From NCBI GenBank assembly GCA_004357655.1, contig SMVQ01000206.1, positions 1 through 34,744 of the forward strand: a stretch of 34,744 nucleotides of DNA, given 5' to 3'. The DNA is from Planctomycetota bacterium (GTDB lineage: Bacteria; Planctomycetota; UBA1135; GCA-002686595). The notes under the pieces are model-generated. The model was not told the origin of the DNA, ran no database searches, and saw only the letters and a program-made list of their open reading frames with translations. The translations under genes and the position numbers were made by a program. Below, piece after piece: positions 941 through 21,449 of the stretch. The stretch's first letter is position 1. Each line of letters opens with the position of its first letter.

Positions 941-1720
941 ATGCCGAAGCTCGCCATGCAGACCGCGGAAGGGGTCACGCTGGAGCTCGACCTGGCGGGG
1001 GCGGGGAGTCGGTTCGCCGCGGGCCTGATCGACGGGATGCTGATCCTGACCATCACCCTCGGCTTCCTCGTCCTGGCGATCCTTCTCGGGGGCGTCGACG
1101 TCACCGGCTTCTCGAACTTCGTGCTCGGGCTCGTCGGGATGGGCAACATCCTGTTCCTGGTCGCGTACAACGTCGTATTCCCCATCGTTTGGGACGGGCA
1201 GACGCCGGGGAAGAGGGTCATGGGGTTGCGCATCGTGAGCGCCGAGGGTCATCCCGCGACGCGGATGCAGATGCTCGTCCGCGGGCTCCTGTGGATCGTG
1301 GACGTGCTCGTGCTCGTGCCCATTTCCATCGGCGTGCTCCTCATCGCGGTGACGGAGAAGCGCCAGCGGCTCGGCGACATCGTGGCGGGCACGCTCGTCG
1401 CGCGCGAGGCGCCGCTGGGCGTGGCGTCGGAGCCGTGGCCGCGGGAGTCGTGGACGGGGCTCGTGCAGCGGCATCTCGCCCTCGGCCCCGCCGTGCTCGA
1501 GCAGCTCGACGGGGAAGATCTCGCCTTCCTGCGCGAGGTGATCACACGCCGGGGGATCGAGGAGTTCAAGCGCAGGCCCCTGCTGCGGCGCGTGGCGAAG
1601 CACTACCTCGACCGGCTCGGGCTCGAGCAGGCGGCGGATCCGCGCACGGTGCTGAAGGAGCTGTACCTGTTCCTGAGGGAACAACGAGGAGTGCTCCAGC
1701 AACCGTCTGCCGGAAGCTAG
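941..1720 (+). CDS. RDD family integral membrane protein
   Basis: This encodes about 259 residues from ATG 941; a GTG at 920 is an alternative in-frame start but adds only seven poorly fitting residues. The RDD signature is visible: an Arg in GSRFAAGLIDG at the start of helix 1, a second helix ending in NVVFPIVWDGQTPGKRVMGLRIV, and a third helix ending in the RLGDIVAGTLVAR motif. A soluble helical C-terminal tail of about 100 residues follows and is rich in Arg, Glu and Leu. RDD proteins are often transporters or membrane-complex partners, but this one cannot be assigned a substrate. It is divergent from the SpoIIM-family gene, a common pairing. The stop codon TAG (1718-1720) lies exactly at the left end of the inverted-repeat element that follows. 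Confidence 0.85.
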   Translation: MPKLAMQTAEGVTLELDLAGAGSRFAAGLIDGMLILTITLGFLVLAILLGGVDVTGFSNFVLGLVGMGNILFLVAYNVVFPIVWDGQTPGKRVMGLRIVSAEGHPATRMQMLVRGLLWIVDVLVLVPISIGVLLIAVTEKRQRLGDIVAGTLVAREAPLGVASEPWPRESWTGLVQRHLALGPAVLEQLDGEDLAFLREVITRRGIEEFKRRPLLRRVAKHYLDRLGLEQAADPRTVLKELYLFLREQRGVLQQPSAGS

Positions 1721-1880
1721 TGTTCTGCGCCAGGAGTTCGTGTGCATTGGCCGTGACGCCCAGTGTCCAGGGCAAGGCGCTTTGATTCGTATGCGCTGTG
1801 ATACTCGGAGCAGGCGCAACGCAGGCATGGGCGCTGGGAGGTGCGGGCAATGTGCACGAACTTCTGGTGCAGGACACTAG
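1717..1880. mobile_element. 164-bp MITE-like imperfect inverted repeat in a CTAG, between convergent stop codons
   Basis: Positions 1717-1769 pair with 1828-1880 in a 53-position stem: 41 Watson-Crick pairs, 9 G·T pairs and 3 mismatches. The two outer ends both read CTAG, and just inside them is GTGT(T/C)CTGC(G/A)CCAG. The short size, lack of coding capacity, terminal inverted repeats and TA flanks inside CTAG fit a nonautonomous element of the IS630/Tc1-mariner type, which duplicates TA; IS630 is known to favour CTAG. The interior, about 1770-1827, has no gene. The left CTAG supplies the TAG stop of the RDD gene and the right CTAG the stop of the M50 gene on the other strand. No transposase is present in the window, so mobility is inferred. 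It may alternatively be a structured RNA or a bidirectional terminator. Confidence 0.65.
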
Positions 1881-19181: not shown

Positions 19182-19352
19182 GCCTTCAGCCTAGCAGCCC
19201 GTGCTGGAGCGCGCGGCGTGTCCGGAAGTGGCGGGGTTCGCGCCGGCGAGGCGCACAGGCGACGCGTGTTCCGTGAGTACTCGGAGAGGGTGCGAGGCAG
19301 CCGGCGCGGATCCGGTGGCTTCTGGGCGGGTCGTGTGTTTCACCACGGGCTG

Positions 19353-21449
19353 CTACCGTTCGTCGGCCTGCTCCCACTCGGTGCGGAGGGCGTGGACGGC
19401 GTCGAGGAGGAGTGCGTGTTCGGCGTCGAGCGCCTCGGAGCCGAGCGCGACGGCCGCGCGCAGGGTGGGGAAGGTCTCCGCTCCGTACCCTGTCTCGAGC
19501 CCCGGCGCCCAGAGCCGGTTCTTGAACCACGGCCGATCCGCGAGCCCTTCCCGTAGCTCGAGCGCACTGTAGAAGGTAGCGATGGGGCGCTGCGCGAGCT
19601 CTCGCTCGATCTCCGCCGAGGTCGCGATCGCGATCACACCGGCGGGCGCGCCGGGAGCGATCAGAGCATCGAGCGCGAGGAGCCGCTCGCGTTCGGGCAC
19701 CGCGGCGGCCGTCGCCAGGCGGTCGAACGCCGCACTCAACGCTTCGGCCCGCTCGGCGCCGAGCCAACTCTCCGAGGCGCGCGCATGGCGCGCCATCTCG
19801 GTCGCCGCTTCCGAGTCGTCGAACGCAAGGCGCCCGAGCGTGGCGAGGTCCTCGAGCAGCACCGCCAGGAACCGGCCGGCGAGCTCGTGCCCGATGAAGC
19901 CCGGGTCGAGGGTTCGCTCCACTTGGAGGAAGTCATCGAACGCCGTGTGGTACTGGCCGCCCCGATTGCCGCGGAACGAGATGTCGACGACGGGCAGCGA
20001 CAGGTGGTGCAGGAAGACCGCGAAGTCCGAGCCCGAGCCGGGCAGGCCGAGTTGCGGCGCGCCCTCGGTCGATTCCAGCCATTGCTGCCACAAGGTCCGG
20101 GCTGCGTCGCCGTTCGCCGGGTCAGGGGCGGGCACCCTTGCGAGCGAGTGCGCGAGGACGCCGAGGAGGCCCGGTGTACCCGAGGCTCCGAAGCGCGTCC
20201 CGCTCACGGCCACATCCGCGTTCACGTAGACGAGCGCGTGCTCGCGCAGCCACCCGGCGTTCGCCTCGCCCCACTCCGTGCTGCCGATGAGGCCTTGCTC
20301 CTCGGCGTCCCAGAACGCGATCGCGATCGAGTAGCGCGGCTTCCAGCCCGCCTTCACGCGTTCACCGAGCCGCTGTGCGGCGCGCAACAGCGCGACCGTC
20401 CCCCCGCCTGCGTCGTTCGCGCCGCGCACCCACGCGTCGCGGTGGTTGCCTGCGATCACGACGTCCTCGGACACGCCGCGCAGCCGGCCGATCACGTTGC
20501 GAATGGTGCGCACCTCGCGCGGCGCGTCGACGATGATCCGCACCTCGACCGGACCGGGTCCGACCTGGACGCTCATCTTCGTCCCATCCGCCTGCGCGAT
20601 GCGTTTCGTCGCGAGGCGCGCGCGGATCGCCGCCGCCTCGCGCGCGGGGATCGGCGTGCAGGGGATCCGTGGCAGGAGCGCGTAGAGCTCCTCGCTCGAG
20701 AGCCGCGGCCGCGCGGACTCGCCGCCCGGCGCCGGGGAAGGAAAGCCGGGTGTCGAGGGATCGCCCGGCGCGCGGCCCATCGGCGCGATCGAGCCCCGTT
20801 GCACCGCCCAGTCCGGCTTCCAAGGACCGGCGGGCCAGGTCGCGCCCCGCTCCGCGCCGTCGTCACTCGGATCGCTGAAGAGCAATACACCCGTGCATCC
20901 GAACTCGGTGGCGAGCTCGACCTTGATGCCGCGGTAGCCCTGCCCGTAGCGGCAGAGTGCGATCTTGCCCGCCAGGTCGACGCGCGCCGCCGCGAGGCGT
21001 TCGAAGTCCGCGCGCGTCCCGTAGCCACAGTCGACGACGGCGCCACGCACGTCACCGCTCGCGGACCACGCATTGAATGGCGGGATGTCGCCAGGCGGGA
21101 TCGCATCGGGATCGAAGCGCTCCCTGCGCTCCGAGAACGGGGCGGTGGCGATCGAGTCGGAGTACAACCCGACGACCACCCGGCGCGGCAGCGAGAGCAG
21201 CACCGCGCGCTCGTCGAGCTCGACCTCGAACCCAGCCGCCACGAGGTGCCGCGCGACCATCCTGGCCGCACGCAGCGAGCCGGTGGTCCCCGCGAGCCGC
21301 GCCTCCTCGGTCAGCTCGAGGAGCAGGGCGCGCGCGGGCGGACCCGCGACGTCCTGCGGCGCCGCCTGGACGGGCGGGACGAGCGGGGCGAGCAGGAGCA
21401 CGGCGGCGGCGAGGCGCGGAGCCGCTGGGAACGGGGAGAATCGGTGCAT
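19353..21449 (-). CDS. Secreted M28 zinc peptidase of the glutamate carboxypeptidase II (PSMA)-like type
   Basis: This encodes 698 residues. A signal peptide (cleavage near VQA/AP, residue ~29) sends it out of the cytoplasm. A protease-associated domain (~95-300) is inserted before the catalytic core and contains GAVVDCGYGTRADF and AGKIALCRYGQGYRGIKVELATEFG. The binuclear zinc site is complete: H336 (GNHRDAW), D346 (GANDAGGG), catalytic base E383 and ligand E384 (WDAEEQG), D412 (NADVAV) and H501 (QYHTAFDD). The spacings H-D 10, D-E 37 and E-D 28 match human GCPII. A helical C-terminal dimerisation-like region follows. It probably trims peptides in the periplasm as an exo- or dipeptidase; exact specificity is unknown. 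The gene is divergent from the HAD-kinase gene. Confidence 0.88.
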   Translation of the reverse strand: MHRFSPFPAAPRLAAAVLLLAPLVPPVQAAPQDVAGPPARALLLELTEEARLAGTTGSLRAARMVARHLVAAGFEVELDERAVLLSLPRRVVVGLYSDSIATAPFSERRERFDPDAIPPGDIPPFNAWSASGDVRGAVVDCGYGTRADFERLAAARVDLAGKIALCRYGQGYRGIKVELATEFGCTGVLLFSDPSDDGAERGATWPAGPWKPDWAVQRGSIAPMGRAPGDPSTPGFPSPAPGGESARPRLSSEELYALLPRIPCTPIPAREAAAIRARLATKRIAQADGTKMSVQVGPGPVEVRIIVDAPREVRTIRNVIGRLRGVSEDVVIAGNHRDAWVRGANDAGGGTVALLRAAQRLGERVKAGWKPRYSIAIAFWDAEEQGLIGSTEWGEANAGWLREHALVYVNADVAVSGTRFGASGTPGLLGVLAHSLARVPAPDPANGDAARTLWQQWLESTEGAPQLGLPGSGSDFAVFLHHLSLPVVDISFRGNRGGQYHTAFDDFLQVERTLDPGFIGHELAGRFLAVLLEDLATLGRLAFDDSEAATEMARHARASESWLGAERAEALSAAFDRLATAAAVPERERLLALDALIAPGAPAGVIAIATSAEIERELAQRPIATFYSALELREGLADRPWFKNRLWAPGLETGYGAETFPTLRAAVALGSEALDAEHALLLDAVHALRTEWEQADER

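Follow-up and report, generated by a model that had tools for sequence, protein, structure and literature searches.

The element at positions 1717 to 1880 of the window, that is, of the whole stretch of 34,744 nucleotides analysed here, belongs to a large family of mobile hairpins of about 165 bases in Planctomycetota. The family keeps its fold on just one strand, which suggests a role in its spread for a single-stranded molecule, probably RNA. On balance we consider it probable that this is a non-autonomous mobile hairpin in which the fold of one strand has been selected in the spreading lineage, most likely as RNA. The original prediction, that all nine transition differences in the inverted repeat give G·U pairs on the plus strand, is confirmed: the 55-base arms have 42 Watson-Crick pairs, nine G·T or T·G and no A·C on that strand. 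The count of nine wobbles stands, while the three mismatches over 53 positions become four over 55, three of them G·A and one G·G. Nine of nine is indeed improbable by chance (p = 0.004), but it is weak alone, being a single case selected from the entire window, and becomes solid only with the ratio of 66 to 4 found across the superfamily. The plus strand folds into a single hairpin of -106.9 kcal/mol (z -10.4), and the minus strand reaches -70.6 kcal/mol (z -6.2). An exact inverted-repeat search of the window did not pick up this hairpin, its arms being imperfect. A scan of the window against Rfam returned no family at the gathering threshold, and a scan of five loci at E ≤ 1 gave one weak match, located outside the element. 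In the titles and abstract openings of the open-access literature on Planctomycetes repeats, IS1182 MITEs, structured RNA and G-U hairpins we found no description of it.

Table 1. Positions of the two hairpin elements, their parts and the stop codons within their ends
Feature	Positions	Strand	Remarks
Mobile hairpin element	1717..1880	+	core strand is the plus strand; 164 bases, CTAG at both ends
Outer left arm	1717..1748	+	terminal inverted repeat, CTAG start
Outer right arm	1849..1880	+	CTAG finish
Inner stem and conserved core	1753..1844	+	covariance model R1, 64.7 bits, E 1.8e-12; a match by construction, the window copy being 1 of the 20 model sequences
Asymmetric core, GCAAGGCGC...GCAACGCAGG	1772..1825	+	degenerate form of the family core
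TAG within left CTAG	1718..1720	+	stop of plus-strand ORF 920-1720
TAG within right CTAG	1877..1879	-	stop of minus-strand ORF ending at 1877
Second, diverged element of the superfamily, CTAGCAGCCCGTG...CACGGGCTGCTAC	19191..19356	+	12 G·U, 0 A·C
TAG in right end of second element	19353..19355	-	stop of minus-strand ORF 19353-21449

The genome of the window contains 39 matches to the element, two of them full-length (93% and 83%), and several have in common with it only the central 60 bases or so, with quite different outer arms. A pattern of the terminal inverted repeat (TIR) matched 153 ends in genome G016 and 15 in G000, with none for the reversed-pattern control, and the number in G016 indicates a family that is large and in places recent. 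A core-pattern search found 83 matching stretches in genome contigs and none in viral contigs; all are labelled Planctomycetota or Planctomycetes except the contigs of isolate Bpl_4, labelled 'bacterium'. A loosely defined core pattern produced mainly noise, and a stricter one 95 matches, from which three spurious rows (L036 at 863, L045 at 2219 and L122 at 471) and a duplicate register of L027 were removed by hand; exclusion of those with a core longer than 62 bases or without both ends left 61. A later extraction yielded 129 hairpins, of which five with a weak core score (<20) were dropped, and grouping by arm identity placed the remaining 124 core-bearing hairpins in 16 families. The elements are short, multicopy and without a transposase gene, mostly 163-169 bases long with CTAG ends and 156-157 bases between repeats with GGGCCC ends. 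The covariance model detects members in 58 of the 392 Planctomycetota genomes, and often several per genome. It also recovered the second element of the window, which is absent from the model sequences and had been overlooked by sequence search (match at 19227-19320, 51.8 bits, E 1.3e-9).

The core is asymmetric and therefore fixes a strand on which mismatches can be scored. In the 16 family consensus sequences the arm pairs comprise 759 Watson-Crick, 54 G·U, 6 A·C and 67 other pairs. When the second window element is added and strict arm limits are used (17 consensus sequences), the transition-type mismatches on the core strand are 66 G·U and 4 A·C. The non-transition mismatches are biased in the same direction, with 27 G·A versus 6 C·T and 25 G·G versus 6 C·C, besides two A·A and one T·T. 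In the outer 32 bases, where the arms of the families differ most, there are 23 G·U and 2 A·C (p = 2e-5); the inner arm has 43 and 2, although ancestry there is common to the families and the cells are not all independent. In 15 of the 16 families the consensus folds better on the core strand than on the complementary one. Distant loci have 83 G·U and 40 A·C over 27 matches, several with arms extended into flanking DNA. In the five core-less hairpins with at least four transitions the majority direction accounts for 24 of 29, with 19.2 expected from coin tosses. One-sidedness thus extends to these hairpins: the core may not be required for the bias, which may be a general trait of long hairpin repeats here.

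Recent changes, specific to single copies, were counted from the paired state in only the seven of 16 families represented by three or more copies. They comprise 44 G·U and 48 A·C, 24 G·A and 19 C·T, and 7 G·G and 11 C·C; by mutation at paired sites they are 25 G>A, 22 C>T, 23 T>C and 22 A>G. Mismatches containing G stand to the complementary ones containing C as 118 to 16 among fixed differences and as 75 to 78 among recent ones (Fisher p = 6e-13, subject to the common ancestry of family cells). Since the recent changes are unbiased and the fixed ones biased, the bias belongs to the spreading lineage and not to mutation in resident copies. Selection on a one-strand fold that acts on spreading lineages, rather than on each resident copy, fits these data best. 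A·C as frequent as G·U in other copies, named originally as what would refute the prediction, holds for copy-specific mutations and strongly fails for family-fixed differences. Decaying MITE is likewise only half correct as a label, since resident copies decay with no pairing bias whereas the family as a whole is large and, in places, recent.

For the covariance alignment 20 inner regions were chosen from 27 prepared sequences. The seven left out (L088, L034, L043, L274, L067, L073 and L142) partly have different core hairpins, and the choice favours a clean alignment. In this alignment 22 of the 33 inner-hairpin pairs have changed on both sides (13.9±1.7 in shuffles), and 105 cells have done so, compared with 36.6 when shuffled. 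Paired cells amount to 87.8%, as against 30-46% with slid partners, a measure that is favoured by a structure partly derived from the fold of one family. Covariation therefore supports a common fold, as would be expected of a structured RNA. Two adjacent inner pairs retain U·G, one in 12 and the other in 9 of the 20 sequences, and their flanking pairs covary. In the core a repeated GA/GA internal loop, which presumably forms sheared G·A pairs, has a closing stem on one side and a terminal hairpin on the other, both of which covary. Selection on a plus-strand hairpin, one of the two explanations put forward originally, is thus supported by the strand bias across families, the covariation and the conserved internal loops.

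One and the same core is found within CTAG ends that match an IS1182-family element, within an IS1380-type end and within TNA-flanked GGGCCC ends, and these ends therefore belong to different transposase families. Genome G019 has a 1557-base IS1182 element (L305, 379.6 bits with a cut-off of 270). Its terminal repeat of 21 bases, which includes CTAG, is matched exactly by that of hairpin L040 from this genome. The CTAGCAGGC family has a partial terminal-repeat match with L315 in G009. In G043 an arm of hairpin L397 has 20 bases in common with one end of an IS1380-family element, the other end of which was not found in the contig. Comparison of 30 transposase loci with hairpins of the same genome gave one useful match, and in the elements compared no transposase parent was found for the CTAGTGTYCTG ends of the window copy. 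CTAG-ended autonomous elements do occur in host genomes, and the conserved core is in none of the insertion sequences examined. In most GGGCCC-ended copies, read by eye, the flanks are TAA/TAA or TTA/TTA. The other type has an almost invariant CTAG at either end, which makes a duplication indistinguishable from element sequence without an empty site. Two further candidates were rejected: IS630 (PF13358) has no matches in the genome of the window, and IS701-type elements (PF13546) have CTAG ends but different terminal repeats.

These observations suggest the following model. The outer 20-32 bases or so would be terminal inverted repeats for DDE transposases inserting at CTAG or, in other families, at TNA, and the inner stem and core would be a conserved structured module that functions in single-stranded form with a fixed polarity, most likely an RNA copied from the plus strand. 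New families would descend from copies with a well-folding plus strand. In this way the lineage would accept G·U and the mild G·A and G·G changes, all compatible with the fold, and would lose the disruptive A·C, C·C and C·T; once inserted, a copy would decay freely. The RNA nature of the molecule, its transcription and a role of its fold in mobility rather than for the host are inferences. Against the model, a sigma-70-like promoter had no match in 1500-2100, a result that says little for this phylum. A more far-reaching form of the model is possible but rather doubtful, namely that a structured RNA module found throughout the phylum takes over terminal repeats from DDE transposons that are unrelated to one another (IS1182, IS1380 and TNA-type), keeping its core as the mobility ends change, and that its RNA fold is needed in the spreading lineage.

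The main competing explanation, which we consider unlikely, is that a strand-specific step of mobility requires the core strand to fold as single-stranded DNA, in the manner of IS200/IS605 or REP/RAYT systems. Selection does seem linked to spreading and not to resident copies, and Y1-type transposase genes are present in seven of the eight host genomes tested. The order in which mismatches are tolerated (G·G, G·T and G·A, but not A·C, C·C and C·T) also suits DNA. From recent to fixed differences G·G is enriched more strongly (25/7) than G·U (66/44), so that DNA mismatch stability fits at least as well as RNA. Against this, the elements are bounded by TIRs, with CTAG or TNA repeats, that match DDE elements, and G016, with at least 40 scored copies, has no match to a Y1 transposase. 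Moreover, the 39 copies placed in G016 are divided into 20 leading and 19 lagging relative to a weak skew, without a replication-fork orientation bias, which together with the missing Y1 match argues against a single-stranded DNA mechanism. RNA is more likely than single-stranded DNA to be the functional molecule.

It is improbable that the hairpin acts in host mRNA as a 3'-end stabiliser, RNase III site or terminator. ERIC-, NEMIS- and bcr1-like repeats are reported to act in this way (PMC3733652), and the window copy ends two convergent genes. Among CTAG-type elements, 58 of 181 intact ends have a gene end on their TAG, although random CTAG strand-sites in the same flanks are gene ends in 46 of 239 cases, only a modest two-fold excess (genes were called by a simple open-frame and third-position rule). 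Genes ending exactly on an element lie on the antisense side in 28 cases and on the sense side in 13, favouring the side that transcribes the other strand. This and the lack of any U-run in 1500-2100 speak against the terminator that had been proposed, and resident copies are without pairing selection. The nine differences are largely common to close copies, as they would be if they had arisen by chance in one master copy and then been inherited, and taken alone they have p = 0.004. Such a frozen accident is nevertheless very improbable and is contradicted by the same direction over 17 families with differing outer arms, 23 to 2 in those arms. Least probable of all, and rejected here, is the other original explanation, strand-specific C-to-T deamination of an exposed or transcribed strand. 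Plus-strand C>T would yield G·U in both arms, but recent C>T and G>A are balanced, and G·G over C·C and G·A over C·T are biased too, beyond what deamination can make.

Bacterial MITEs are usually viewed as the passive ends of dead insertion sequences. Here, by contrast, the inside is conserved and the ends are variable. The comparison of fixed with recent differences points to selection of one strand's fold in the spreading lineage and not in resident copies; it allows one to test directly whether the movement of a non-coding element benefits from its RNA fold, and the statistic is simple and usable on other hairpin repeats. REP/REPIN sequences with RAYT are also intergenic palindromes with a strand-polar foldback. 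They are described as 20-40 bp long with GTAG or CGTC tags (PMC3733652), while the present elements have about 165 bases, CTAG or TNA and, in G016, no Y1 transposase. IS1272, of the IS1182 family, is reported to target stem-loops (PMC5678879) and to replace the target stem-loop without target duplication. The L040 hairpin shares its terminal repeat with the IS1182 element of G019, whereas the present hairpins have CTAG at both ends and a core in no insertion sequence examined. The bcr1, ERIC and Correia/NEMIS repeats, compared by description (partly PMC3733652), are likewise intergenic, multicopy, non-coding and strongly folded, with about 130-170 bases, but they have other hosts; the present core is phylum-wide and sits in exchangeable ends. 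The candidate structured RNA Rhodopirellula-1 is listed for Proteobacteria and Planctomycetes (PMC2864571), a likeness in host group.

Several minor observations were made. The window element lies exactly between two convergent genes, its CTAG ends (1717-1720 and 1877-1880) carrying both stops, an arrangement seen in 4 of 92 elements examined. Two core-less hairpins, L197 (87-260) and L184 (345-518), have an end resembling an IS1380-type end, and their transitions in the aligned stretches are all one-directional (7/7 and 4/4, respectively). A 185-base hairpin with CTAGTGTCCTG ends, L154 at 1488-1673, falls below the core threshold and has five G·U and no A·C. Many contigs of isolate Bpl_4 (JAAELL records) stop within a hairpin copy, which suggests that the repeat breaks assembly and that copy numbers from drafts are too low. 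A further hairpin of about 60 bases (GGTAAGCCCCGGT...GGGGACCCC) is present in the core loop of L011, L012, L013 and L022-L025 in the genome of the window. This insertion occupies one and the same core site across families with different ends, as if the core had been exchanged or invaded as a unit.
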